This document shows positions 4,035 through 52,236 of a stretch of 63,248 bases of DNA, piece after piece; position 1 is the first letter of the stretch; every line of letters starts with the position of its first letter. This stretch comes from Cytophagales bacterium (lineage in GTDB: Bacteria > Bacteroidota > Bacteroidia > Cytophagales > Thermoflexibacteraceae): contig JAAFJS010000007.1 of assembly GCA_013298985.1 (NCBI GenBank), positions 1 to 63,248 of the forward strand, written 5' to 3'. The notes under the pieces were generated by a model that was given only the letters and a program-made list of their open reading frames with translations, was not told the origin of the DNA and searched no databases. A program made the translations under genes and the position numbers.

Positions 4035-7000
4035 ATGAAAAAAATTATTCTTCTGCTATTTGTGTATGGCGTGCTGGCGCAGCCCCATGCCTTTGCACAA
4101 TTCAATGTTAATATTTCCACTGCGCCTACGGTAAATATGCCAGTTACCAATGCTGGCACAGTGCGTACCTTCACTGCCAATGCTACAGGTGCCAATTTAC
4201 AAATTGCCGACATCATTGCCGCCTACACAGGTGGTGTTACCGAAGTCAGAATACTGACAAATGCCACTGGTGGAATAGAAGATGGTAATATTACTTTCGG
4301 CAATCCGATTGACTACAATACTATTGGCTTAGGCAAAACGCTGACTTTGATAGCCAATAATACCATAAATATCACTCAAAACATCACAGATGGCACAGCA
4401 GGTGGCGATTTGCTCAACCTGAACTTTACAGGGAATGGATTAGGCGCAAGTGTAACTACGGTAGCGGGTGTGCAGATGAATGTTACCATTGCAACCAATG
4501 GCGGCAATATCACCCTCGTAGGCACACAAAATGATGCAGGAGCAAAAGGAGTCAATATTCCTGGCGGTAACATTACTACTGCGGGCGGATTTCTCTCCAT
4601 CACAGGTACTGCCAATGGCGCAAATGCAGGTATGAATACTTGCGATGGCATAGATATCCAATCTGCCACTACGACTACCGCGGGCGGGGCGATAACCCTC
4701 ATTGGGACTTCTGCAAATGCCACAGGCAACAACGGTGTTCAGATAGACTCACCTCTCAATAGCGGTGCAGGTGCTATCACCATTACAGGCATCAGCAACG
4801 GCAATGCAGTCGGTGTGGTAAATACGGTAGGAAGTATCACCACCACAAGCGGAAACGTAACTATCACAGGGACAGCGAATAGCACTGTTTTAGCTAATAT
4901 TCTTTCAGGAGGGGTAGTGATTACCCAAGCCATTACCACAGGTTCAGGCAAAATTACGATTGTAGGAGAAAGCAACAGTGTAGCTCCTGCTTTTGTGAAT
5001 CCAGCAGCAGGTTTGGGAACGCTAACTTCTACCAGTGGGGATATAAGCATCACAGGAACAGCTAAAAATGCACTTAGCATGGGTATAAATGCTCATGGTG
5101 TTTTGGTACAAAAAGCACTCAACACAGGAACAGGCAAAATCACCATCACAGGCGAAAACAATGGTTCTGCTGCCAGTGGTATTATTATAAGTGCTACATT
5201 AATAACCACTGGTGGAGATATTACGCTAAAAGGAAATACAAAAAATAGTTTTGGTTCAAATGGCATATCTGTTACCCAACCTATCAATGCTGGTACTGGA
5301 AAAATTACGATTACTGGGGACAGTAACGGAACTACCAGTGTTATTAGCCTAACTAACACTCTCACCACTACTGGTGGAGATATAACCATTAATGGATTAT
5401 CCAAAAATCCATCAGGTGGTGGATTGGGAATATCCATTGGACAACCTATAAACGCTGGTACAGGAAAAATATCAATCACAAGTGAAACTAATGGTTTCGA
5501 TGCTGTTGATGTAAATACAACGCTGACTACTACTGGTGGTGATATTACGCTGAACGGAAATGCAAAAAACACATTTGGTGGATTTGGTGTAGTTGTAAGA
5601 CAGCCTATCAATGCAGGAACAGGAAAAATCAATATTACAGGAGAGAGTAATGGAAATCTTGCTAATGGTATTGCTATTAATGGCTCTCTCACCACTACCA
5701 ATGCAGATATTACACTTACAGGCAAAGCAAAAGGCAATGTCAATAACTCCTCTGGCATCAGAATTAATAATACCATTACCACAGGAACAGGCAATCTGAT
5801 AGCGAATGGGGAATCTAATTCAGAAGTAGGTTATGGCATCCTTTCTATTACTTTTCCTATCAGTACCAATGGAGATATTATCCTCACAGGTATCAATAAG
5901 AACACCACCAGTACGCCACTTCTGGCAGGTGGAGGTATCATCATTGGGCAGGCTATCACCACAGGCGCAAAAAAAATCACCATTACAGGCGAAAGCAATA
6001 GTTTGACCAATGCTATCATCATCAATAGCACCCTCACTACTACTGGTGGCGATATTACCCTCAATGGTGTAGCCAAGAATACTACTGGTGGAAGTGGCGC
6101 ACTCATTAATAATGCTATCAACTCAGGCGCAGGAAAGATTACGATTACAGGAGAAAGTAATGGAGTTTCTGATGCAACCATAATCCAAAGTACACTTACC
6201 ACGACAAGCGGAAATATAGAAGTTACAGGTAACGCAAAGGCAACGACTGGTGGGGCAAGGGGGATAAATGTATCAATACCCATTACCACAGGCAGTGGAA
6301 ATATCAAACTGAATGGAGAAAGTTCAAATAGCTTTCCAGGTCTGGGTGTTTTTGCCTCTGTTACTTCCACAAGCGGGTCAATAGAATTAGGCGGCATCAA
6401 TAAAAGTACCACATCTCTCAACTCTCCTTTTGGGGTAGAAGTACAGCAACCCGTAAGCACTGGTGGTAATGGCACGATTACTATTATTGGCGAAAGCAAT
6501 GGCAATGGACAAGCAGTCATTACCTCTACAAGTGGGAGTTTAACTACTACCAATGGAGATATTAGCATTACAGGTATAGCAAAAAGCAGTGATGCTACCC
6601 AGACAAATACATTTGGCGTTTTAATTTCACAACCTATCAATGCAGCCACAGGAAAAATCACCATCACAGGCGAAAGCAATGGAATCAGTAGCGCAGTTTC
6701 AATCCAAAATACACTCACTACTACAAGCGGCAATATAGAAATGACAGGTAAATTAAAAGCCACTACAGGATTTGGCAGAGGTATAGAAATATTCACTGCT
6801 ATCCTTACAGGGACTGGTAATGTAATTCTTAATGGGGAGAGTGGAAGTTTTTTTCCAGCAATTGCTACATTCAATACCATCACTACCAGTGGAGGAGGTG
6901 TAACCTTGAATGGAAAAGCAACCAATCCAATTAGCAATCCTTCTACTGAACTCCCTATTGGCGTAGAAATTCAACAACCAATCAATACAGGGGCAGGAAA

Positions 7001-9284
7001 AATTACAATTATAGGAGAAAATAATGGTGGAGTTCCTCCTGTATTTATATGGACAAATGGAAATCTTACTACCACAAGTGGAAATGTGGAAATCTCTGGT
7101 AAAGCAAAAAGCACAGTAGGAAGTAGCAGAGGGGTAGATATTCGCAATCCTATCACCACAGGAAGCGGTAATGTAACCATCACAGGTGAATCTGAAAGTG
7201 AATTTCCTGGTGCCTCATTACTTAGCAATATCATCTCTACAAGTGGTTCTTTCTTTATCAAAGGAATCAATAACAATGTTATTACAAACTCTACTGTTCC
7301 TTATGGCGTAGAAACAAATGGGATAATTAGCACTGGTGGCAATGGCACTATTTCCATAGAGGGAGAAAATAACGCCAATGCGCGAGCAACCTTAATTTTC
7401 CCTATTGCTAATATTTCTACCGTTAATGGTAATATTAATATCAAAGGTACAGGCAAAAGTACAAATAATACCTATGTAAATGCGATTGGAGTAGATATAC
7501 AAGGACTTGTGAATGTTACAGGAACAGGCTCTATCAGTGTAACAGGTGAAAGTAATGCCAATAGCCTTGCCTTAGCCGTTTTCTCGCCAACTACTACTTT
7601 GCGTACCAATTCAGGTGATATTAACATCACTGGTCTAAGCAAAAGCACTGTAGGTACGCTCTCCAGAGCTGTAGAAATCTTATCTCCCTTGGAGTCTGTG
7701 AGTGGAAAAATTAATATCATAGGAGAAAGTCGTGGTCTGGCAAGTGCAATTAACACAACTTTCTCTTTAATTAACCCCAAAGATATTTCCCTACTTTCAA
7801 GACGTGGAAATATTAATATTGGCAATAATCGTTTTATCCAATCCACCAATGGCGGAAGGATTGACATTTGCGTTCCTCCTTCTTACAACTTAGTCATAAG
7901 TGGTGCAGTAAGTGGCAATAGTATTCAAACTACCGCAGGCGCACCTATTTCCATCACCAATGGAGGTACACTGGCTGTGGGCAATGCCGCAAACTTAATC
8001 GGACTTATTTCAAATGGCACAAATACCGTCCCCGCAGGTACTTACCAAACAGCAACTTTTGGTGCTATTACTATCTTTTCTGCAATTACTTCCACGTTTT
8101 CAGCACCCTTAGCAGAATCAACACTCAATAACGCAACAGTTACCCTCAAAACAGGTGGCTGTGCAAGCACAAACTGGGCAAATACGCTTTCGGCCGTTAA
8201 TTTTGGGCTAACAAACTACCCAATAGGCACAAGCATCAAATCTGTCAGAAGAATTGATAATGCTACCGCCGAAATTACCTTGGCTTTTGATGGTACAGAC
8301 TTCGATGCAAATATCGCTAATGCTCAAATTGTCATTCTGACAAATGCCTTTAATCCTGCCATTCCTCAAAATTTATTGGTATCTACACCCATTACAGCCG
8401 AGCAGGAAGGCATCAAAGTATTTGATGGAACGACGCTTATCACCAATAATGGTACTGCTTTCAATGTAGGCAGCACCTTAGAAGGTACGCCCATTACCAA
8501 AAACCTGAGAGCATTCAATGATGATATAAATGCTATCACTATTTCTGGTTTTACCATTAGTGGAGGATTTGCGCTTGGAGTGGCTGCACCTATCACGATT
8601 GCAGGCGGCGCATCAGTCAATATTCCTGTTGTATTAACAGGTCTTGGAAACCAAACAGGCAAACTAAACATCATCAGTAACTCACCAGTAGCTTCTCAAA
8701 GTCCATTTGTGGTGAATCTGACAGGAAGTATCACGCCCGTTCTGCCTCCTATGATTACAGGCAAGGCAGGAAGCCAAAGCGTAACACTCTCTTGGGAAAG
8801 CCTCTTTTATGCAGGAAGCTACGAAATTTATGGTTATGCTTTGGGGCAACCTCAGCAGCTATTAGGAACTACCACAGATAATAAATTTGTAGTAACAGGC
8901 TTGAAAAACGCCACTAACTATTTCTTCAGGGTGATTGTTATTGCTACCAATGATGTAAGAAGTACATTTTCCAATACTGTAGAGTTGCGCCCTTCCATTG
9001 TTCTTGGCACAGAAGACGAATCTTTGAATAGCTTGCTCAGTATCTATCCAAACCCAAGCGAAGGCACATTTACCATTTCTTTGGAAGAGAAAAAAGTAAG
9101 CAAAGGCAGTTTGCAAATCTTGATTTATGACTTGGCAGGCAAAATCCAATACCAAGAAAGTCAATCAAAATTCAATGGCATTTATCAAAAAACCTTTGAG
9201 GAAAAGAGCTTAAATTCAGGAATGTATTTAATTCAACTCCAAACCGAACAAGGCGTTTACAGTAAAAAAATCATCATAAAGTAA
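4035..9284 (+). CDS. Giant secreted repeat protein with FN3 domain and T9SS C-terminal sorting domain
   Basis: The start at ATG 4035 gives a clear signal peptide (MKKIILLLFVYGVLAQPHAFAQ), so the longer frame from 3891 is rejected; the product is 1749 aa. From about residue 180 to 1235 there are roughly 37 copies of a short strand-turn unit of two alternating kinds, TTGGDITLNGNAKN-like and GTGKITITGESNG-like, suggesting a long beta-helix stalk. Then come a region resembling choice-of-anchor D domains (about 1450-1565), a fibronectin III domain (about 1571-1652, VTLSWE ... YFFRVIV), and a type A T9SS tail (about 1665-1749) with SIYPNPSEGTF and GMYLIQL. It should be exported by Sec, pass the outer membrane by T9SS and be released or cell-anchored. 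An adhesin or surface-layer role is inference; no enzyme domain is seen. It is divergent from tetR. Confidence 0.9.
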   Translation: MKKIILLLFVYGVLAQPHAFAQFNVNISTAPTVNMPVTNAGTVRTFTANATGANLQIADIIAAYTGGVTEVRILTNATGGIEDGNITFGNPIDYNTIGLGKTLTLIANNTINITQNITDGTAGGDLLNLNFTGNGLGASVTTVAGVQMNVTIATNGGNITLVGTQNDAGAKGVNIPGGNITTAGGFLSITGTANGANAGMNTCDGIDIQSATTTTAGGAITLIGTSANATGNNGVQIDSPLNSGAGAITITGISNGNAVGVVNTVGSITTTSGNVTITGTANSTVLANILSGGVVITQAITTGSGKITIVGESNSVAPAFVNPAAGLGTLTSTSGDISITGTAKNALSMGINAHGVLVQKALNTGTGKITITGENNGSAASGIIISATLITTGGDITLKGNTKNSFGSNGISVTQPINAGTGKITITGDSNGTTSVISLTNTLTTTGGDITINGLSKNPSGGGLGISIGQPINAGTGKISITSETNGFDAVDVNTTLTTTGGDITLNGNAKNTFGGFGVVVRQPINAGTGKINITGESNGNLANGIAINGSLTTTNADITLTGKAKGNVNNSSGIRINNTITTGTGNLIANGESNSEVGYGILSITFPISTNGDIILTGINKNTTSTPLLAGGGIIIGQAITTGAKKITITGESNSLTNAIIINSTLTTTGGDITLNGVAKNTTGGSGALINNAINSGAGKITITGESNGVSDATIIQSTLTTTSGNIEVTGNAKATTGGARGINVSIPITTGSGNIKLNGESSNSFPGLGVFASVTSTSGSIELGGINKSTTSLNSPFGVEVQQPVSTGGNGTITIIGESNGNGQAVITSTSGSLTTTNGDISITGIAKSSDATQTNTFGVLISQPINAATGKITITGESNGISSAVSIQNTLTTTSGNIEMTGKLKATTGFGRGIEIFTAILTGTGNVILNGESGSFFPAIATFNTITTSGGGVTLNGKATNPISNPSTELPIGVEIQQPINTGAGKITIIGENNGGVPPVFIWTNGNLTTTSGNVEISGKAKSTVGSSRGVDIRNPITTGSGNVTITGESESEFPGASLLSNIISTSGSFFIKGINNNVITNSTVPYGVETNGIISTGGNGTISIEGENNANARATLIFPIANISTVNGNINIKGTGKSTNNTYVNAIGVDIQGLVNVTGTGSISVTGESNANSLALAVFSPTTTLRTNSGDINITGLSKSTVGTLSRAVEILSPLESVSGKINIIGESRGLASAINTTFSLINPKDISLLSRRGNINIGNNRFIQSTNGGRIDICVPPSYNLVISGAVSGNSIQTTAGAPISITNGGTLAVGNAANLIGLISNGTNTVPAGTYQTATFGAITIFSAITSTFSAPLAESTLNNATVTLKTGGCASTNWANTLSAVNFGLTNYPIGTSIKSVRRIDNATAEITLAFDGTDFDANIANAQIVILTNAFNPAIPQNLLVSTPITAEQEGIKVFDGTTLITNNGTAFNVGSTLEGTPITKNLRAFNDDINAITISGFTISGGFALGVAAPITIAGGASVNIPVVLTGLGNQTGKLNIISNSPVASQSPFVVNLTGSITPVLPPMITGKAGSQSVTLSWESLFYAGSYEIYGYALGQPQQLLGTTTDNKFVVTGLKNATNYFFRVIVIATNDVRSTFSNTVELRPSIVLGTEDESLNSLLSIYPNPSEGTFTISLEEKKVSKGSLQILIYDLAGKIQYQESQSKFNGIYQKTFEEKSLNSGMYLIQLQTEQGVYSKKIIIK
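4573..7740 (+). repeat. Intragenic tandem repeats, about 37 degenerate units
   Basis: The coding sequence repeats two alternating unit types every roughly 80-100 bases. Their cores translate as TTxGDITxxGxAK and GxGKITITGESNG. Several neighbouring units are close at the DNA level (for example accactactggtggagat and attacaggagaaagtaatgg variants), so length variation by slippage or recombination is possible. All units keep the reading frame. Confidence 0.85.
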
Positions 9285-9309
9285 ACTCCTTGTGAAAGTA
9301 GCAATTTTT

Positions 9310-9341
9310 CCCTCTCAAAAGGAGAGGGACTTAGGGTGAGG
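9310..9341. repeat. Short interspersed palindromic repeat (CCCTCTC...GAGAGGG family)
   Basis: CCCTCTCAAAAGGAGAGGG is a hairpin followed by ACTTAGGGTGAGG. The same layout, a GC-rich hairpin then TTAGGGTGAGG-like sequence, recurs in both orientations inside smc. It lies in the intergenic space after the giant exoprotein, upstream of the terminator. Confidence 0.75.
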
Positions 9342-9382
9342 AAGATAAAAAACACTTTTGCAAGAAGTCTATTCTTTAAAAC

Positions 9383-19290: not shown

Positions 19291-22200
19291 ATGCAATTAA
19301 GTAAATTAGAAATCAGAGGCTTCAAAAGTTTTGGCGACAAGGTAACGATTCACTTTGAGGAAGGCGTAACGGGCATTGTAGGTCCCAACGGCTGCGGCAA
19401 GTCCAACGTGGTGGACGCGATTCGCTGGGTATTGGGTGAGCAAAGCACCAAAAGTCTGCGCTCCGACAAGATGGAAAATATCATTTTCAATGGGACAAAA
19501 AACCGCAAACCACTCCAAATGGCAGAGGTTTCACTGACTTTTAATAATCGATATAAAAATGTCCTCTCCTCTGGGGAGGAAGTAGATGAGGCGAAAATAA
19601 TCAGTGAAGGCATTGAAAACAGCAAAAAATCTAAGAACTCCCTCCCAGAAGGGGAGGGTTTAGGGGTGGGGCAAACAAGTAATTTTAACTCCTTTTCCGA
19701 AGTGGTCGTAACGCGCCGCTACTATCGCGCAGGTGAGGGCGAGTACATGCTCAATGGCGTAACTTGCCGCCTCAAAGACATCACTAACTTGCTCTTAGAC
19801 ACAGGGATAGGCGCAGATAGCTACTCGATTATTGAGCTAAAAATGGTCGACGAAATCCTGAATGATACGCATGGAGAACGCAGAAATTTATTCGAGGAAG
19901 CCGCAGGAATCTCTAAATTCAAGGTCAGAAAAAAGGAAACCATGAAAAAACTGGGCGAGGCAGATTTGGACTTAGAACGCGTGGAAGACTTGCTTTTCGA
20001 GATAGACAAAAACCTCAAAACGCTTGAAAAACAAGCAAAACAGGCAGAACGCTATTTCAAAACCAAAGACGAGTACAAAAGCCTAAGCGTCGAGCTTGCC
20101 AAAAAAACAGTTTCACACCAAAGCGAAAAGTTAATCGCACTAAATCAGCAAATTACGCAGGAAAGTGATAAAAAATTGGCACAGCAAACACAAATCGAAA
20201 CCAAAGAAGCTACCATAGAAAGTTTGCAGTTCGAGATAATCAACAAGGAAAAATTATTTGCCAGCAAACAGAAAAATCTCCACGAACACGTCAATCGGAT
20301 TCGCCAGTACGAGAGTGAGAAAAAAATCAAATCCGAAAGATTAAAATACTTGGAGGACAGACAGCAAAGTATAAATTTACAAATTGTTTCCGAAAAAGAA
20401 AATATTGAAAAAGTACAATTTCAGATAACACAACTCGACCAAGAAGAAAAATCTGCAAACAGGCAACTGGCAGAGGCACAGATACAGTTGGCTAACTTGA
20501 AGCAAGATTATGACAAGCAAAAACAGAATGTTCAGGAAATCCAACACGAAGTAAGCAAGCTCAATTTGGAGATAAAAAGCACACAAGAAAGTGTTTTTCA
20601 GGTAAAAAAATCATTAGAAATCAAGCAGATGCAGTACAACAGCTTGCGAATAGATTTAGAAAAAAATTTTTCTGGAGGTAATCTTTTCCAAGAAAACATT
20701 GACAGATTTACGGAGGAAATAGTAACATTAAAAGAGGAAATAGCAGAAAAAGAAAATGAGTTAAAAAATACAATTCAAAATGAAGATGAATTAAAAACAC
20801 AAATCATTGATTTACAAGCAGAAATAGAAGGAATAAGAGAAGAATATGCCAAAGCAAGTCGCAAGTTAGATGCCCTACAAAATGAGTATAATCTTACTAA
20901 ATCCTTGATAGACAACTTCGAAGGCTTCCCTGAAGGAGTAAAGTTTTTGAAACAAAATGCTACTTTTATCAAGACCGCACCTTTCCTTTCTGATATTTTT
21001 ACCTGCGCGGAAAAGTACAAAATTGCGATAGAAAATTTCCTTCAATCTCGCCTAAATTATTTTATTGTCGAAACAGAAGAACACGCTTTCCAAGCGGTCA
21101 ATCTGCTTAGTGAGGCATCTCAGGGGAAGGCAAATTTTTTCGTACTCAAAGATGCAGCAACTATTTTTAGCAATCACCCTTCCAAGATTTTATATGCTTT
21201 AAATGCTGAAAATGAAGAAGATATAGTTCCTGCCATCCGCCTGATAGTATGTGAAGATAAGTATTTTCCACTGATGAGTTTGCTCTTGGAAAATGTGTAT
21301 GTAGTGAATATAACCTCCCCCCAGCCCCCTCCAAAGGGGGAGAATACTTTTATTTCCTTTGGAGGTGGTAAGGGGGAAGCAAGCAGTATTTTCATCACCC
21401 TCAACGGCAAAATCATTCGCAGAAAATACAGCATTTCAGGTGGTTCTGTGGGGCTTTTTGAAGGCAAACGGATTGGTAGGGTCAAGAATTTGGAAAACCT
21501 GAGTAAGGAAATCGAGGCATTAAAAATTCAATTTTCACAATACGAACAAAGTATAGAAAGGAAGGTATATCACCTGCAAAAACTCAAGGAATCCTCTCAT
21601 AATGAATCAATTATAAAACAGCAAAATGAAATTGGCAAACTGCAACAGGCGATAGCTGCAGCGCATATTCGTCAGGAACAGCAATACGAACAGGTAAACC
21701 GAGAAAAACAACGCACTGAAGCCATGCGCGAGCAATTATTGGCATTGAAAGATGAAATTGCTGATAATGAGCCACTTGTGGGAGAAGCACAACAAAAATT
21801 GGCTAAGTTGGAAGGCGAGCTAAACGAGCAAAATCAAGTTTTAATACGTCAAAATGATTTGCTTGCTCAAAAATCTATCTATTATAACGAGCAAAATATT
21901 CAGTTTTACCAACTCAAAAATAAGGCTGATAATTTCCTGAAAGAACTGGAATACAAGGGTTTAGACTTAGAAAGAACACAAAAACGCATCAATGATTTTT
22001 CACAGGAATTAAATCAGTTTGCAAAAGAAATTAATCAACTCAAAGACAGCATTTTAACAGTAGATGAGGACGACTATTTGCTTGGGCTGTATGAGGAAAA
22101 AGAGGCGATAGAAGTCGGCGTAAAAAATTCAGAACGAGCCTATTACCAAGCAAGAGGTGAGGTAGTCGAGATAGAAAAACTGATTCGTGAGTTGCGTCGC

Positions 22201-23016
22201 AGCAAGGAAATTGCAGATACTTTGCTCACTGAATTACAACATAAATTGAACGAAAGTCGCTTGCAAATGTCGTCGGTTAAGGAACGTTTGTCAGTAGAAT
22301 TTGAGGTGGATTTGGAGGAAATAATGCAAAGTGCAGCATTGCAAATCAGCCCTTTGACCGAAGAATATATGCGCGAAGAAGTCAAAAAAGCAAAGGAACG
22401 CTTGGAAAAAATAGGTCAAATCAATCCAATCGCGATGGAGGCTTACAACGAAATTAAGCAACGTTATGACTTCATTATCAGCCAGAAAGAAGATTTGTTG
22501 CAAGCAAAAAACTCACTTATGCAGACCATTTCTGAGATTGATACCGTTGCCAGACAGCATTTTACAGAAGCGTTCCAAAAAATCAGGACAAATTTCATAG
22601 AGGTTTTTCGTTCGCTTTTTACAGAAGAGGATACCTGCGATTTGACACTTTCTGACCCCGCAAATCCCTTAGAAGCTGACATCGATATTATTGCCAAACC
22701 CAAAGGCAAAAGACCGCTGACTATCAATCAGTTATCAGGTGGGGAAAAAACGCTGACTGCGGTTTCCTTGCTCTTTGCGATTTACCTTTTGCGTCCTGCC
22801 CCTTTTTGTATTTTTGATGAAGTCGATGCGCCGCTTGATGATGCCAACATTGACAAGTTCAACAACATCATCAAACGTTTTGCGGATTATTCGCAGTTTA
22901 TTATCGTTACGCACAACAAGCGCACGATGGCAACGACTGACGTAATTTATGGCGTTACCATGCTCGAACAAGGCGTTTCTACGGTGATTCCTGTGGATTT
23001 GAGAGAGTTAGCGTGA
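19291..23016 (+). CDS. smc: Chromosome segregation protein SMC, with repeat-derived insertions
   Basis: A 1241-aa condensin ATPase that folds into a long antiparallel coiled coil and organises the chromosome with ScpA and ScpB. The N-terminal head has Walker A GPNGCGKSN. Long heptad-rich arms flank a hinge at about residues 545-715. The C-terminal head has the signature LSGGEKTLTA and Walker B FCIFDEVDAPLD. Two stretches are foreign to the family: residues about 91-135 (with SLPEGEGLGVGQ) in the head, and residues about 675-697 (with SPQPPPKGE and FGGGKGEA) in the hinge. Both coincide with short GC-rich palindromic repeats in the DNA and keep the frame. The core motifs are intact, so the protein is probably functional. 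Confidence 0.97.
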   Translation: MQLSKLEIRGFKSFGDKVTIHFEEGVTGIVGPNGCGKSNVVDAIRWVLGEQSTKSLRSDKMENIIFNGTKNRKPLQMAEVSLTFNNRYKNVLSSGEEVDEAKIISEGIENSKKSKNSLPEGEGLGVGQTSNFNSFSEVVVTRRYYRAGEGEYMLNGVTCRLKDITNLLLDTGIGADSYSIIELKMVDEILNDTHGERRNLFEEAAGISKFKVRKKETMKKLGEADLDLERVEDLLFEIDKNLKTLEKQAKQAERYFKTKDEYKSLSVELAKKTVSHQSEKLIALNQQITQESDKKLAQQTQIETKEATIESLQFEIINKEKLFASKQKNLHEHVNRIRQYESEKKIKSERLKYLEDRQQSINLQIVSEKENIEKVQFQITQLDQEEKSANRQLAEAQIQLANLKQDYDKQKQNVQEIQHEVSKLNLEIKSTQESVFQVKKSLEIKQMQYNSLRIDLEKNFSGGNLFQENIDRFTEEIVTLKEEIAEKENELKNTIQNEDELKTQIIDLQAEIEGIREEYAKASRKLDALQNEYNLTKSLIDNFEGFPEGVKFLKQNATFIKTAPFLSDIFTCAEKYKIAIENFLQSRLNYFIVETEEHAFQAVNLLSEASQGKANFFVLKDAATIFSNHPSKILYALNAENEEDIVPAIRLIVCEDKYFPLMSLLLENVYVVNITSPQPPPKGENTFISFGGGKGEASSIFITLNGKIIRRKYSISGGSVGLFEGKRIGRVKNLENLSKEIEALKIQFSQYEQSIERKVYHLQKLKESSHNESIIKQQNEIGKLQQAIAAAHIRQEQQYEQVNREKQRTEAMREQLLALKDEIADNEPLVGEAQQKLAKLEGELNEQNQVLIRQNDLLAQKSIYYNEQNIQFYQLKNKADNFLKELEYKGLDLERTQKRINDFSQELNQFAKEINQLKDSILTVDEDDYLLGLYEEKEAIEVGVKNSERAYYQARGEVVEIEKLIRELRRSKEIADTLLTELQHKLNESRLQMSSVKERLSVEFEVDLEEIMQSAALQISPLTEEYMREEVKKAKERLEKIGQINPIAMEAYNEIKQRYDFIISQKEDLLQAKNSLMQTISEIDTVARQHFTEAFQKIRTNFIEVFRSLFTEEDTCDLTLSDPANPLEADIDIIAKPKGKRPLTINQLSGGEKTLTAVSLLFAIYLLRPAPFCIFDEVDAPLDDANIDKFNNIIKRFADYSQFIIVTHNKRTMATTDVIYGVTMLEQGVSTVIPVDLRELA
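19562..19671 (+). repeat. Two palindromic repeats inserted in frame in the SMC head
   Basis: Copy A at 19562-19591 contains CCTCTCCTCTGGGGAGG followed by AAGTAGATGAGG. Copy B at 19638-19671 contains CTCCCTCCCAGAAGGGGAGG followed by GTTTAGGGGTGGGG. Both match the hairpin-plus-tail layout of the intergenic copy at 9310-9341. They add about 45 codons without a stop. Confidence 0.8.
21313..21379 (+). repeat. Two opposed palindromic repeats inserted in frame in the SMC hinge
   Basis: Copy C at 21313-21342 (ACCTCCCCCCAGCCCCCTCC then AAAGGGGGAG) is in reverse orientation. Copy D at 21355-21379 (TCCTTTGGAGG then TGGTAAGGGGGAAG) is forward. Together they encode roughly SPQPPPKGE...SFGGGKGEAS, a low-complexity loop between hinge strands. 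Confidence 0.8.
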
Positions 23017-23041
23017 TAATAAATACACAAAGCCTTATCAA

Positions 23042-23177
23042 GCAATAGGGGTTGTCTGACAATTTTTGTGGCAGACTGAGTTTCTACGAGTTCCCCCCGC
23101 TAAAGCGAGGGGTTAATCTAACCCCTCGCTTTAGCGGGGGGAACTTTCCACAAAAATTGTCAGAGTATCGCAATAGG
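23042..23177. repeat. Nested palindromic element flanked by an 8-bp direct repeat (MITE-like)
   Basis: The inner arms at 23090-23115 and 23119-23144 are perfect 26-bp reverse complements around a 3-nt loop (core GCTAAAGCGAGGGGTTA). The outer arms TCTGACAATTTTTGTGG (23055-23071) and its exact complement (23148-23164) enclose them. GCAATAGG occurs at 23042-23049 and 23170-23177, just outside, as a target-site duplication would. It lies between the smc stop and the 3' end of the convergent hybrid kinase gene and could also end both transcripts. Confidence 0.8.
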
Positions 23178-23185
23178 TTGCTTTC

Positions 23186-31703: not shown

Positions 31704-31776
31704 GTGGTTTTTGCCTTCAAACTTCTACACCCTTGTTTGTGTGTTCCACTGACAAGGGTGTGCCATGAAAAACCAC
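31704..31776 (+). terminator. Hairpin terminator after the lipoprotein gene
   Basis: A long interrupted stem: GTGGTTTTT (31704-31712) with AAAAACCAC (31768-31776), and inside it ACACCCTTG (31727-31735) with CAAGGGTGT (31753-31761), followed by TTTTA. It starts directly at the stop codon. Confidence 0.65.
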
Positions 31777-32978: not shown

Positions 32979-35369
32979 TTACTTCACTCTCAGCCTCACC
33001 CCTGCATAAACCATTCTCCCAAAAATAGGTCCCCAAACCATCGCGCTGTCAAAATAAGGGCTAAATGGCTGGTCATGCCCCACAATAGGCATTTCCTGCT
33101 GAAAATTCAATATGTTTTCTAAACCCACATACACATCTAATTTTTTGTTGAGGCTTTTGGTAATCTGCGCGTTCATCAGGAAAAAATCAGGCGAAAACTC
33201 ACCCAAGCGATATTTTTCAGGGTTAGCACTGGTGTTTGGCAAGCGTTTGCGTCCCCACCACTGCACCGTATAATCAAAAGTCCAACGGTTGCGCGTCATG
33301 TAGGCAAGATTGATAAAGGCGCGGTGTTGAGAAATCAGTGGTCTTTGCAAAAGCTGTCCATGATAAGTCGTTTTCACGTCGTACAGACGATATGCCAGCC
33401 TTACGTCAAAGTGCCGAGCAAGTTCGTAATTCAATTCTGCTTGCAAACTATTGGAAAAAGACTGTCCATCTAAGTTATAAAAATTGATTTCCCTTGCGGT
33501 CTTGTCCAAATCCACCACTACTTGATTTTCAAAAATGGTTCGATAAAAATCAATGCTCAAACTGCCTTCCTTGCCCTTAAAAGTAAAATCTTGTGAAAAA
33601 TTCAAACCAAAATTCCACGCTACTTCGGGATTCAGTCCGTAGGCTTTGCTATTCACATTTTCAGCTTGGATACGCATACTTCGCGAACTTGCAAAAATAG
33701 ACATATTCTCTGCAAAAATATTGGCAGTGCGCTGTCCTCTGCCCGCCGCAAATCGGAAAATTGTTTTCTCCGTAGGCGCGTAACGTGCATGAAATCTGGG
33801 TGTTACGAACGCACCAAATAGATTGTGATAATCGGCACGCAAGCCTACTATCATATTAAATTTTTCAGAATGAGTATAGGTATATTCAACAAAAGTTCCT
33901 GCTACTACTTCTTTACGCGCAAACTGAACTGCATTAAACCTTTCATCATAATTATCATAAAGCAAACTTGTTCCCATTTTTACAATATGATTCGTATTGT
34001 CAATGATGCTTTGGTAAATCAGGTTGGCGTAACCCGTTTGCTGATTGCCTCTGTAAGTAGTTAGCCCAAAATAGCCATTTTGACGATAATCCGTCGCAGA
34101 TAGCTGTAAACCAACACTTTGGTACGGTTTTTTCTTATTTACCCAGCCTATTTTCCCCCAGCCTTCGGTGCGCTGTGTATTGATTTCCAGTCCCCAAATT
34201 GGGCTTCTTTGCACCGAATCCATAGGCATACCAGCGTGTTCTGCGTCCGAGTGAATGGAATGGTCGACAGGCTTGGTGCGAAATGTTTTGCCATTTTGCT
34301 TAAAATCAAACTCTCCGCCTAACTTGTAATCTGTTACATATTTGACCCCAAATTGCGCCTCAATCCCTGTTTTTGCATTTCTATACGCCCAGCGATTGAT
34401 GATATTAAACTGCTGCGTAAGCGGAAAATCCAAAAAATGGTCGTGGTTCATGTCGCTTCGGAAAGGTCTTGCGCTACCATGCAGTAATAAGGCAGTTCCC
34501 CAGTTTTTACCTAATTTTTGCGCCAAATTCAGGTTTGCCTCCATGCGCCCGCCGCCATCTACATACGCATTAAAAAACAGTCTTTCAGCATCTTCGGGCT
34601 TTTTGAGTTCCACATTTATCTGCCCCGCAATGGATTCGTAGCCATTGACCACCGAGCCAACGCCCTTCGCCACCTGAATACTCTGAATCCAAGTACCAGG
34701 AAGATAGGAAAGCCCAAAATATGCACCCAAGCCGCGCACCGAAGGCATCATTTCTGTCGTGATTTGCGTGTAAGTGCCTGCTAATCCAAGCATCTCGATT
34801 TGTTTGGTGCCACTGACCGCGTCCGCAAAATTGACATCTACGGAAGGATTGGTTTCAAAACTTTCTGACAAATTACAGCAAGCTGCCTTGAATAACTCCT
34901 TCTCTGTCATTACTTTAACCGCTTTTGTTTCCAAATAATCTGTATAGGAACTTTTGCGCTCCCCTACTATCTCCACTGCTGCTAATTCTGTATTGGATTT
35001 CAATACAATTTCTAAATCATTTACACCTGTTGGAGTATTTACACCTCCGCCGTTGTCAGTGTCCCCACTGACAACTTTCTTTCCCACATCAATTGTATCA
35101 TTTTGAAAACCTATAAAACTGATAATCAATTTTTTAGACTCTTTGGAAACCTTGATTTCAAACCTTCCCTCCTGATTGGTAACTGTACCTTGCCCTGTGC
35201 CAAGCCAGTACACATTTGCGCCCACCAGGGGAGCTTTGGAAATTTCATAAACCGTTCCTTTGACTTTGCCTTGAGCATAACTATCTGTATTTGAAAACAT
35301 TAGTAAAAGTATCAATACAAATACTAACCAATGCAAGGAAAGAAAAAATTTTGCTATAAATGTAAACAT
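32979..35369 (-). CDS. TonB-dependent outer-membrane receptor of the copper cluster
   Basis: The start at 35369 (MFTFIAKFFLSLHW) avoids overlapping the DUF3347 gene upstream; 796 aa with a signal peptide ending near SYAQ. Domains: a carboxypeptidase-D-regulatory-like fold (GKVKGTVYEISKAPLVGANV), a plug domain with the Cys-Cys stretch KAACCNLSESFETN and VKGVGSVVNGYE-type sequence, then a 22-strand barrel ending in an aromatic-free VRLRVK. The AACCNLSESFE feature and the position at the end of a copper operon suggest it handles copper or a copper chelate, but the ligand is inferred from context. Confidence 0.92.
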   Translation of the reverse strand: MFTFIAKFFLSLHWLVFVLILLLMFSNTDSYAQGKVKGTVYEISKAPLVGANVYWLGTGQGTVTNQEGRFEIKVSKESKKLIISFIGFQNDTIDVGKKVVSGDTDNGGGVNTPTGVNDLEIVLKSNTELAAVEIVGERKSSYTDYLETKAVKVMTEKELFKAACCNLSESFETNPSVDVNFADAVSGTKQIEMLGLAGTYTQITTEMMPSVRGLGAYFGLSYLPGTWIQSIQVAKGVGSVVNGYESIAGQINVELKKPEDAERLFFNAYVDGGGRMEANLNLAQKLGKNWGTALLLHGSARPFRSDMNHDHFLDFPLTQQFNIINRWAYRNAKTGIEAQFGVKYVTDYKLGGEFDFKQNGKTFRTKPVDHSIHSDAEHAGMPMDSVQRSPIWGLEINTQRTEGWGKIGWVNKKKPYQSVGLQLSATDYRQNGYFGLTTYRGNQQTGYANLIYQSIIDNTNHIVKMGTSLLYDNYDERFNAVQFARKEVVAGTFVEYTYTHSEKFNMIVGLRADYHNLFGAFVTPRFHARYAPTEKTIFRFAAGRGQRTANIFAENMSIFASSRSMRIQAENVNSKAYGLNPEVAWNFGLNFSQDFTFKGKEGSLSIDFYRTIFENQVVVDLDKTAREINFYNLDGQSFSNSLQAELNYELARHFDVRLAYRLYDVKTTYHGQLLQRPLISQHRAFINLAYMTRNRWTFDYTVQWWGRKRLPNTSANPEKYRLGEFSPDFFLMNAQITKSLNKKLDVYVGLENILNFQQEMPIVGHDQPFSPYFDSAMVWGPIFGRMVYAGVRLRVK

Positions 35370-35389
35370 CTGTTTTTGGCTTTTTAAAT

Positions 35390-35959
35390 TTAAAACTCTG
35401 CTATCACTATTCCACATTTTAACATTCTATCTCCATAATAGGGGTTAAGTATCTTATTTTCAGCACTTAGCCAAGATGCACCCGAATTATCAAAAGCCAT
35501 AGGACAGTGCTGCACGTACACCTTCTGACTATTCGCCTTGAAGCCCATAATGACCGCTTTCATATCTGCCGACAATCTGGAAAAAAAAGCACGCTGGGCA
35601 TCAACTTCCTCATTATCAGCAATATTTTGAGCATTGTAAGCTAATTTTTGCTGATGCGTCGTGAAAAACTGAGCTTGTGCGGCAGTCATTTTTTTAGTAT
35701 CCACTTTTGCCAACGTTTCCAAGAAAAGTTTTCCTTTGGTATTGGCATTGTCGCGCCTACCCGCGACCAACTCATCTTTGAGTTGGAAATAGGCAAGCAG
35801 TAACTCATTCAGTTGCTTTTTTACACCTTCATCAACTATACCCAAATTTGGTGTTTCTGCTTTGGTAGTTGCCGTTTTTTCATGATTTTGGTGCTGTGCA
35901 AGTGCTGTTTCTGCAAAAAAAAGTGCAAAAAGAAAAAATAATTTTTTAATGTTTTTCAT
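35390..35959 (-). CDS. DUF3347 domain protein (periplasmic copper-binding type)
   Basis: A 189-aa protein with a signal peptide (MKNIKKLFFLFALFFAETALAQ). The helical DUF3347 core follows, with the family's C-terminal motif VQHCPMAF ... WLSAE ... NPYYGDRMLKCG. The Cys-Pro-Met, Met and Cys residues are the likely soft-metal ligands. It has a paralogue at 38126-38632; the two bracket the multicopper oxidase gene. It lies 20 bp before the TonB receptor start and is probably in the same transcript. A copper chaperone or buffer role is inferred from CusB-like use of the same domain. Confidence 0.88.
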   Translation of the reverse strand: MKNIKKLFFLFALFFAETALAQHQNHEKTATTKAETPNLGIVDEGVKKQLNELLLAYFQLKDELVAGRRDNANTKGKLFLETLAKVDTKKMTAAQAQFFTTHQQKLAYNAQNIADNEEVDAQRAFFSRLSADMKAVIMGFKANSQKVYVQHCPMAFDNSGASWLSAENKILNPYYGDRMLKCGIVIAEF

Positions 35960-45043: not shown

Positions 45044-45165
45044 CTAAGCCATTGCCATTTCCCCATACATTTCCGCCCGCAACGCCTTTATTCTTTCATC
45101 TCTGATGTATTCGTCGTAGGTAGTTTGGCGGTCTATGATGCCTTTGGGTGTGAGTTCGATGATGC
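45044..45165 (-). pseudogene. Displaced 3' end of the ABC-F gene
   Basis: Read on the minus strand, this encodes the last 40 codons of an ABC-F protein ([15 protein letters not shown] ... ALRAEMY) then GEMAMA and a TAG stop at 45044. It lacks any start or gene body. The intact gene 4.8 kb to the right has the same codons but ends AGSI. The left version is probably the recipient's original tail, cut off by the insertion. Confidence 0.85.
45064..45165 (-). repeat. Left 102-bp direct repeat (ABC-F 3' end)
   Basis: It is identical to 49872-49973 at 101 of 102 positions. The single difference (45089 T versus 49897 G) is a synonymous Ile codon change, ATA versus ATC. The match stops abruptly at both ends: before CATACAT on one side and after GATGATGC on the other. 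Confidence 0.95.

Positions 45166-49857: not shown

Positions 49858-52236
<2,379 letters not shown>

Follow-up and report, generated by a model that had tools for sequence, protein, structure and literature searches.

Dispersed GC-rich palindromes as probable translated loops in the SMC protein of a Cytophagales bacterium

Rickettsia and Wolbachia have palindromes that are translated as part of proteins (PMC3767692, PMC10969869). As described there, these lie in frame in many unrelated genes, they recur at the same site of orthologues, and different elements can occupy a given site in related species, all of which is also seen in the case described here. The Rickettsia elements (RPEs) are described there as 100-150 bp long, as encoding a conserved peptide, and as belonging to intracellular Rickettsiales, whereas the repeats reported here are units of ~30 nt or pairs of ~70 nt, are G-rich, and come from Bacteroidota. 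Going by length, they are not members of the RPE families. The likeness to Rickettsia that a sequence-only reading of this DNA had proposed is borne out at the level of the phenomenon: in-frame copies are found in unrelated proteins, with the insert absent from relatives, and this is a Rickettsia-type case of protein-coding palindromes in Bacteroidota.

Three other systems come close. REPs that lie inside genes, frequently those for replication and repair, have been described in several phyla (PMC3733652). In that paper, GTAG/CGTC-tagged REPs resemble the present repeats in forming opposed dimers, in having copies in replication/repair genes, and in encoding 20-30 residues per dimer, but no GTAG or CGTC tag is seen in the type B consensus given below; neither "SMC" nor "hinge" occurs in that text. 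REPIN/RAYT systems share the unit made of two inverted palindromes and a short spacer but depend on a Y1 transposase, a link found here at 0 of 8 loci, and the window's repeats fall outside the RAYT-linked REPs. Finally, a report on Ca. Thiomargarita nelsonii (PMC4853749) describes a MITE in which a small repeat is likewise associated with a nuclease gene of the PD-(D/E)XK type, but that gene belongs to PF12784 (Yhg-A type) and not to DUF559, and the MITE interrupts hupL.

The window, meaning the whole 63,248-nt stretch of DNA analysed, belongs to a 6.06-Mb draft genome of a Thermoflexibacter in 383 contigs. The nearest relative in the searched collections is Thermoflexibacter ruber DSM 9560, with 78% DNA identity over the SMC gene. 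A genome-wide search returned a single full-length SMC match, the ORF at 19291-23016. The features of this gene are as follows, R1 and R2 being models of the type B and type A repeats.

19291-23016, + strand: smc gene, an intact ORF of 1241 aa with SMC_N and SMC_hinge in Pfam
19549-19689, + strand: head insert, residues 87-133, from the SMC alignment and a structure alignment
19562-19594, + strand: degenerate G-rich hairpin in the head insert, seen in the sequence (fold z -1.3), possibly a decayed type A copy
19597-19623, + strand: stretch read IISEGIENS, probably a decayed family-2 copy, its counterpart in the alignment being a family-2 palindrome (VVSEDTDNG) in the SMC head of T. ruber
19636-19675, + strand: type A G-rich palindrome, read NSLPEGEGLGVGQ (R2, E 5e-11; type A pattern with 2 mismatches)
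21310-21387, + strand: hinge insert, residues 674-699, one opposed type B pair
21311-21344, - strand: type B palindrome, copy 1 of the hinge pair, read TSPQPPPKGE (R1, E 2.4e-15; 1 mismatch to the consensus)
21349-21382, + strand: type B palindrome, copy 2 of the hinge pair, read SFGGGKGE (R1, E 4e-5)

The SMC alignment drew its proteins from 107 of 122 loci and includes 104 rows from outside the genus, several of which are one organism present twice, from two collections (L019 and L058, for example, are one genome). Between fixed anchors in the head there are 14 residues in all 104 of these rows, against 54 in the window protein and 72 in T. ruber, so that the net gain of the window protein is 40 residues. 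The structure alignment places the insert between the residues matching 86 and 94 of the Smc in PDB 5xg3, which we take to be the B. subtilis protein. The R2 model was built from eight type A copies, with the SMC copies left out and the intergenic copy at 9306-9345 among the eight. It recovers the palindrome at 19636-19675, and the 19562 copy is absent from its matches at E values up to 5. In RNA folding, 19555-19600 (z -1.3) and 19630-19680 (z -0.4), which hold the two head copies, do no better than dinucleotide shuffles. In the T. ruber head loop the coding palindrome is another one (VVSEDTDNG), short repeats of the CCAACAA type come after it, and the make-up of the insert is unlike in the two species. 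Model R3, made for family 2, finds the T. ruber palindrome (E 1.6e-7) and gives no match to the window stretch 19597-19623.

In the hinge, the anchors are 36 residues apart in the window protein and 40 in T. ruber, as compared with 20-26 in 99/104 outside rows (typically 22) and 31-39 in the other five; the net gain is ~14 residues. Among these five long hinges, palindromes are present in L019 and L058, and there are none in L035, L038 and L112. The T. ruber hinge holds the same opposed pair (APPLPPPSEGG...TSPFGGKEGG), and it is the best of the three R1 matches in the T. ruber genome. When R1 was run over 100 of 110 SMC loci, the top hinges were those of T. ruber (E 8e-6) and of a member of another genus, G005 (E 0.47, alone not significant). 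The window pair folds better than dinucleotide shuffles (z -3.9), and the T. ruber hairpin no better than its own (z -0.2). A structure model of the hinge (212 residues, mean pLDDT 79.5, built from 35 sequences) has a mean pLDDT of 48-54 over residues 151-170, between the strands at 140-143 and 171-174; in this model the insert falls on a low-confidence stretch between two strands.

The sequence-only reading had announced four in-frame GC-rich copies in SMC, adding about 70 residues at places where SMC proteins normally have none. The copy at 19636-19675 and both hinge copies hold, the latter opposed as claimed, and the one at 19562 is degenerate and unmatched. The gain comes to ~54 residues (40 in the head and ~14 in the hinge). 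It had mentioned neither the stretch at 19597-19623, which lies between the two head copies, nor the MITE around the copy at 9310. The case that it had named as a refutation, relatives with the same residues but no repeat-like DNA, did not arise: the head insert is absent from 104/104 rows outside the genus. Its observation is partly confirmed and its interpretation supported; the finding is real and goes further than the reading had said.

The SMC copies belong to a repeat dispersed through the genome. The type B consensus, CTCCCCCTTTGGAGGGGGTTGGGGGGAGG, occurs at 47 places with up to three mismatches, against 2 for the reversed control; the same search finds 6 places in a congener (G001, 62% complete), none in T. 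ruber (G002), and 5 in two of 95 other genomes. With R1, built from 38 copies of the window genome and no SMC copy, there are at least 118 matches at E up to 0.1 (a floor, 119 candidates having been scored in total), 27 in the congener and 3 in T. ruber; at this threshold, 29 of 59 genomes have some match, mostly weak. Across 82 stretches R1 gave 131 matches, or 129 once two L176 matches duplicating L190 were removed, and these group into 86 units. The opposed (-,+) arrangement is found in 37 of the 41 two-copy units, with spacers of 2-22 nt between model ends. A type B unit is ~30 nt long and a pair ~70 nt, and the consensus is free of stop codons in all six frames. Its stems have no covariation beyond that of shuffles because the copies are too alike. 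The type A consensus is CCCTCTCNGAAGGAGAGGGATTAGGGGTGAGG, and type A forms the core of MITEs of ~88 bp, of which the copy at 9310 is one. A single type A pattern was rejected as a count of that family, as it yields only 4 matches because the repeat has subfamilies.

Type B units are translated elsewhere in the genome as well. Nine of the 86 lie well inside eight ORFs of at least 300 aa, namely SMC, an amidoligase (DUF2126), two FG-GAP/ASPIC proteins, a TPR-CHAT protein, a cytochrome c peroxidase, a glycosyltransferase, and a 1209-aa ORF without Pfam match. Two further units at ORF starts bring this to 11/86. Since ~57/86 would be expected at random, type B avoids long ORFs in this genome. In the congener, 4 of 17 units are inside ORFs. 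The amidoligase insert is common to the window species and the congener, and the T. ruber amidoligase, 85% identical, is without it. The notion of a mobile repeat tolerant of coding sites thus stands as to dispersal (47 places against 2, at least 118 matches) and translation in other proteins, but not as to indifference to genes. Tolerance of coding sites better describes the second palindrome, family 2 (GTTGTCWGTGnnnnCACWGACAAC), with 22 of 37 window-genome copies in ORFs of at least 250 aa where ~27 would be expected at random. The window genome has 39 family-2 places (control 0), and 15 of 59 genomes contain the palindrome; in the congener, 9 of 10 copies fall within ORFs above the same length limit. 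Its hosts include a TonB receptor, a hydantoinase, an FAD oxidase, and an Lhr-type helicase. Changes on both sides of its stems are found in 5 of 10 pairs; the alignment (A3) and model R3 include one copy from G007 (L340). The window holds a perfect copy:

35052-35075, - strand: perfect family-2 palindrome, read VVSGDTDNG in frame within an 815-aa TonB-receptor ORF (32982-35426, - strand)

A weak family-2 match (R3, E 0.015) is found at 31729-31759. The window contains other repeats of its own. Directly after smc, at 23039-23180, a 27-bp perfect inverted repeat, AGTTCCCCCCGCTAAAGCGAGGGGTTA, sits inside outer inverted repeats (79% over 33 nt), and the inner hairpin is found again near L149:9708. 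From 4494 to 7650 there are many direct repeats, imperfect and 40-155 nt long, with a period of ~160-190 nt. A 102-nt direct repeat, 99% identical, is present at 45064-45165 and 49872-49973, 4.8 kb apart.

Outside Thermoflexibacter, an opposed SMC hinge pair was found among the 104 rows in one other genus of the family only, that of G005 (MAG WN_Cytophagales_1, loci L019 and L058). Its pair, GCCCCCCAGCCCCCGAAGGGGGAG-spacer-CTCCCCCTTCGGGGGTTGGGGGGC, read PQPPKGELHLLRQTPPSGVGG, is near-perfect and folds at -62.6 kcal/mol (z -10). One copy is an exact match to G005's own repeat variant, and the other differs from it by a single mismatch. This variant occurs at 179 places in G005 including the SMC pair (control 1), at 21 in its congener G009, at 2 in G001 and 1 in G004, and at 0 places in the window genome and in T. 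ruber. The G009 SMC is without the hinge pair. Around 34 pattern-listed places in G005, 67 of 73 copies lie in ORFs of at least 300 aa, such ORFs making up 68% of the bases there; the hosts include methionine synthase, two AcrB-type pumps, a peptidase-ABC exporter, and methylmalonyl-CoA mutase. The 67 copies use four frames (28, 28, 7, and 4, copies within one pair or gene not being independent), and the frames reading LPLRGLGG or PPNPRRG are never used. An unbiased 400-kb sample of G005 speaks against the idea that in-gene copies dominate everywhere: it contains 9 copies at up to four mismatches, 5 of them in ORFs of at least 300 aa, and none of these five lies beyond codon 20 of the open frame (three, in L489, upstream of the likely start; two, in L493, where the frame looks broken). 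The true in-gene share in G005 is uncertain because this sample differs from the pattern-listed places.

The explanation that best fits these comparisons, with a probability of roughly 0.85, is that dispersed GC-rich palindromes entered smc in frame and stayed there as translated loops. The hinge pair would predate the split from T. ruber. In another genus, a second pair, drawn from that genus's own repeat variant, would have inserted into this hinge loop, and the head loop would have gathered different repeats in different species. The insertions may have survived because the type B unit is stop-free in six frames, because its peptide is rich in Pro, Gly, and Ser, and because of the loop position. 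The units would be tolerated genome parasites, without sign of function in SMC.

The same hinge loop and the same opposed arrangement in Thermoflexibacter and G005 could also come from one insertion in the family ancestor, followed by several losses and by gene conversion to each genome's repeat. This is unlikely, as it requires extra losses in G009 and in the clade of G006, G008, G010, G011, and G012, and as every SMC bears its own genome's variant. On a tree built from 36 selected SMC rows the minimum is two changes; a single change is compatible with 0% of the 200 bootstrap trees, and a gain combined with losses costs more; read in this way, the G005 hinge pair appears as a second change.

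As for what moved the repeats, the opposed pairs look like REPINs, and matches to Y1_Tnp (8 in the window genome, 3 in G001, and 2 weaker ones in T. ruber) follow the order of repeat abundance. It is nevertheless quite unlikely that the repeats are REPIN elements mobilised by a Y1 (RAYT) transposase, since no type A or B palindrome, at up to five mismatches, lies near any of the eight Y1 loci of the window genome, and the consensus is without the tags mentioned above. One Y1_Tnp locus, L130:2107-2465, has its own palindromes of the CTGTTACAAGGC type and is possibly a true RAYT-REP pair of this genome.

That DDE transposases carried the copies as cores of MITEs is very unlikely for SMC, although it holds for the intergenic copy that the sequence-only reading had placed at 9310. 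This copy is indeed there, at 9306-9345, but as part of an IS5-type MITE:

9283-9371, + strand: intergenic MITE (~88 bp) whose core is a type A hairpin and whose imperfect ends are of the AGACTTCTTGCRAAAGT kind, from end matches and sequence

The ends AGACTTCTTGCRAAAGT have 76 matches in the genome at up to one mismatch (control 0), and they also bound a 0.93-kb IS5-like element with split HTH_Tnp_4 and DDE_Tnp_4 ORFs (C202:2976-3906, or L377:781-1711), which is likely the parent of the MITE. Many type B pairs also sit within larger elements that have other types of ends. However, no ends of the AGACTTCTTGCRAAAGT kind surround the SMC copies, and the hairpin core recurs in several unrelated end types.

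Domestication of the loops, in which the hairpin or the peptide would have a selected role in SMC or its mRNA, has little probability. The hinge pair does persist in T. ruber despite only three R1 matches genome-wide, and both the window pair (z -3.9) and the G005 pair (z -10) are predicted to form strong hairpins, but the T. ruber hinge hairpin reaches only z -0.2, and the make-up of the head insert differs between the two species. That the segments are ordinary ancestral SMC loop sequence with coincidentally repeat-like DNA is hardly credible: hinge length varies, reaching 31-39 residues in 5/104 outside rows, L035, L038, and L112 without palindromes, but the head insert is missing in 104/104, independent models match at E 5e-11, 2e-15, and 4e-5, and the same residues without repeat DNA were not found in the aligned relatives.

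Under the preferred reading, that of in-frame entry from dispersed repeats, the best candidate mover would be a DUF559 (Vsr-like) nuclease element with palindromic flanks, the short pairs being its nuclease-less form. In G005, the methionine synthase (L459:555-4922) has an insert between the residues aligned with 214 and 221 of PDB 9ssp, and its reading frame runs through palindromes, a complete DUF559 domain, and one further palindrome. A leucyl-tRNA synthetase of G046 (L230:3-2519) has DUF559 and palindromes in frame, and so does, with several palindrome pairs, an Eco57I-type methylase adjoining BREX genes on a Pseudanabaena galeata plasmid (L509:1894-6317). No self-splicing (intein) domain appears in the Pfam tables of SMC, the methionine synthase, the leucyl-tRNA synthetase, or the methylase. 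DUF559 regions stand beside palindromes in 4 of 4 cases in 2.94 Mb, these loci having been picked by their palindromes. In a plasmid sample (16 of 31 listed records, from three phyla), a C/G-rich hairpin lies within 200 bp of DUF559 in 15 of 16 cases, the density of hairpins being 5.6/kb in the near zone (36 hairpins) and 0.44/kb farther away (30 hairpins; Poisson P 2e-27). The first 4 of the 16 had been looked at beforehand; of the other 12, 11 hold and L499 does not. No DUF559 was found in 1.29 Mb (21%) of the window genome or in the 400-kb G005 sample, which makes the link with the repeats of this window an inference. The string "palindrom" does not occur in a paper on DUF559 (PMC12907096). 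We tentatively propose, at somewhat less than even odds, that a DUF559 (Vsr-like) gene between inverted G-rich palindromes forms an autonomous mobile element, spread over several phyla, that can insert in frame and be translated without splicing, and that the short pairs found in SMC and dozens of other proteins derive from it and lack the nuclease.

As far as the literature was searched (the peptide PPPKGE, for instance, gave no match), the SMC case, the use of one loop in two genera, the choice of frames, the near-absence of gene avoidance in one palindrome family, and the association with DUF559 are new. If the DUF559 link holds, the mover of orphan G-rich palindromes could be tested with one small nuclease, and such an element would account for a large class of G-rich orphan repeats in bacteria. 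Tiny mobile palindromes reshape core proteins of Bacteroidota, SMC here, and methionine synthase, AcrB-type pumps, and methylmalonyl-CoA mutase in a sister genus. The use of a single SMC hinge loop in two genera amounts to a natural experiment on the places at which a vital machine takes up new peptide.
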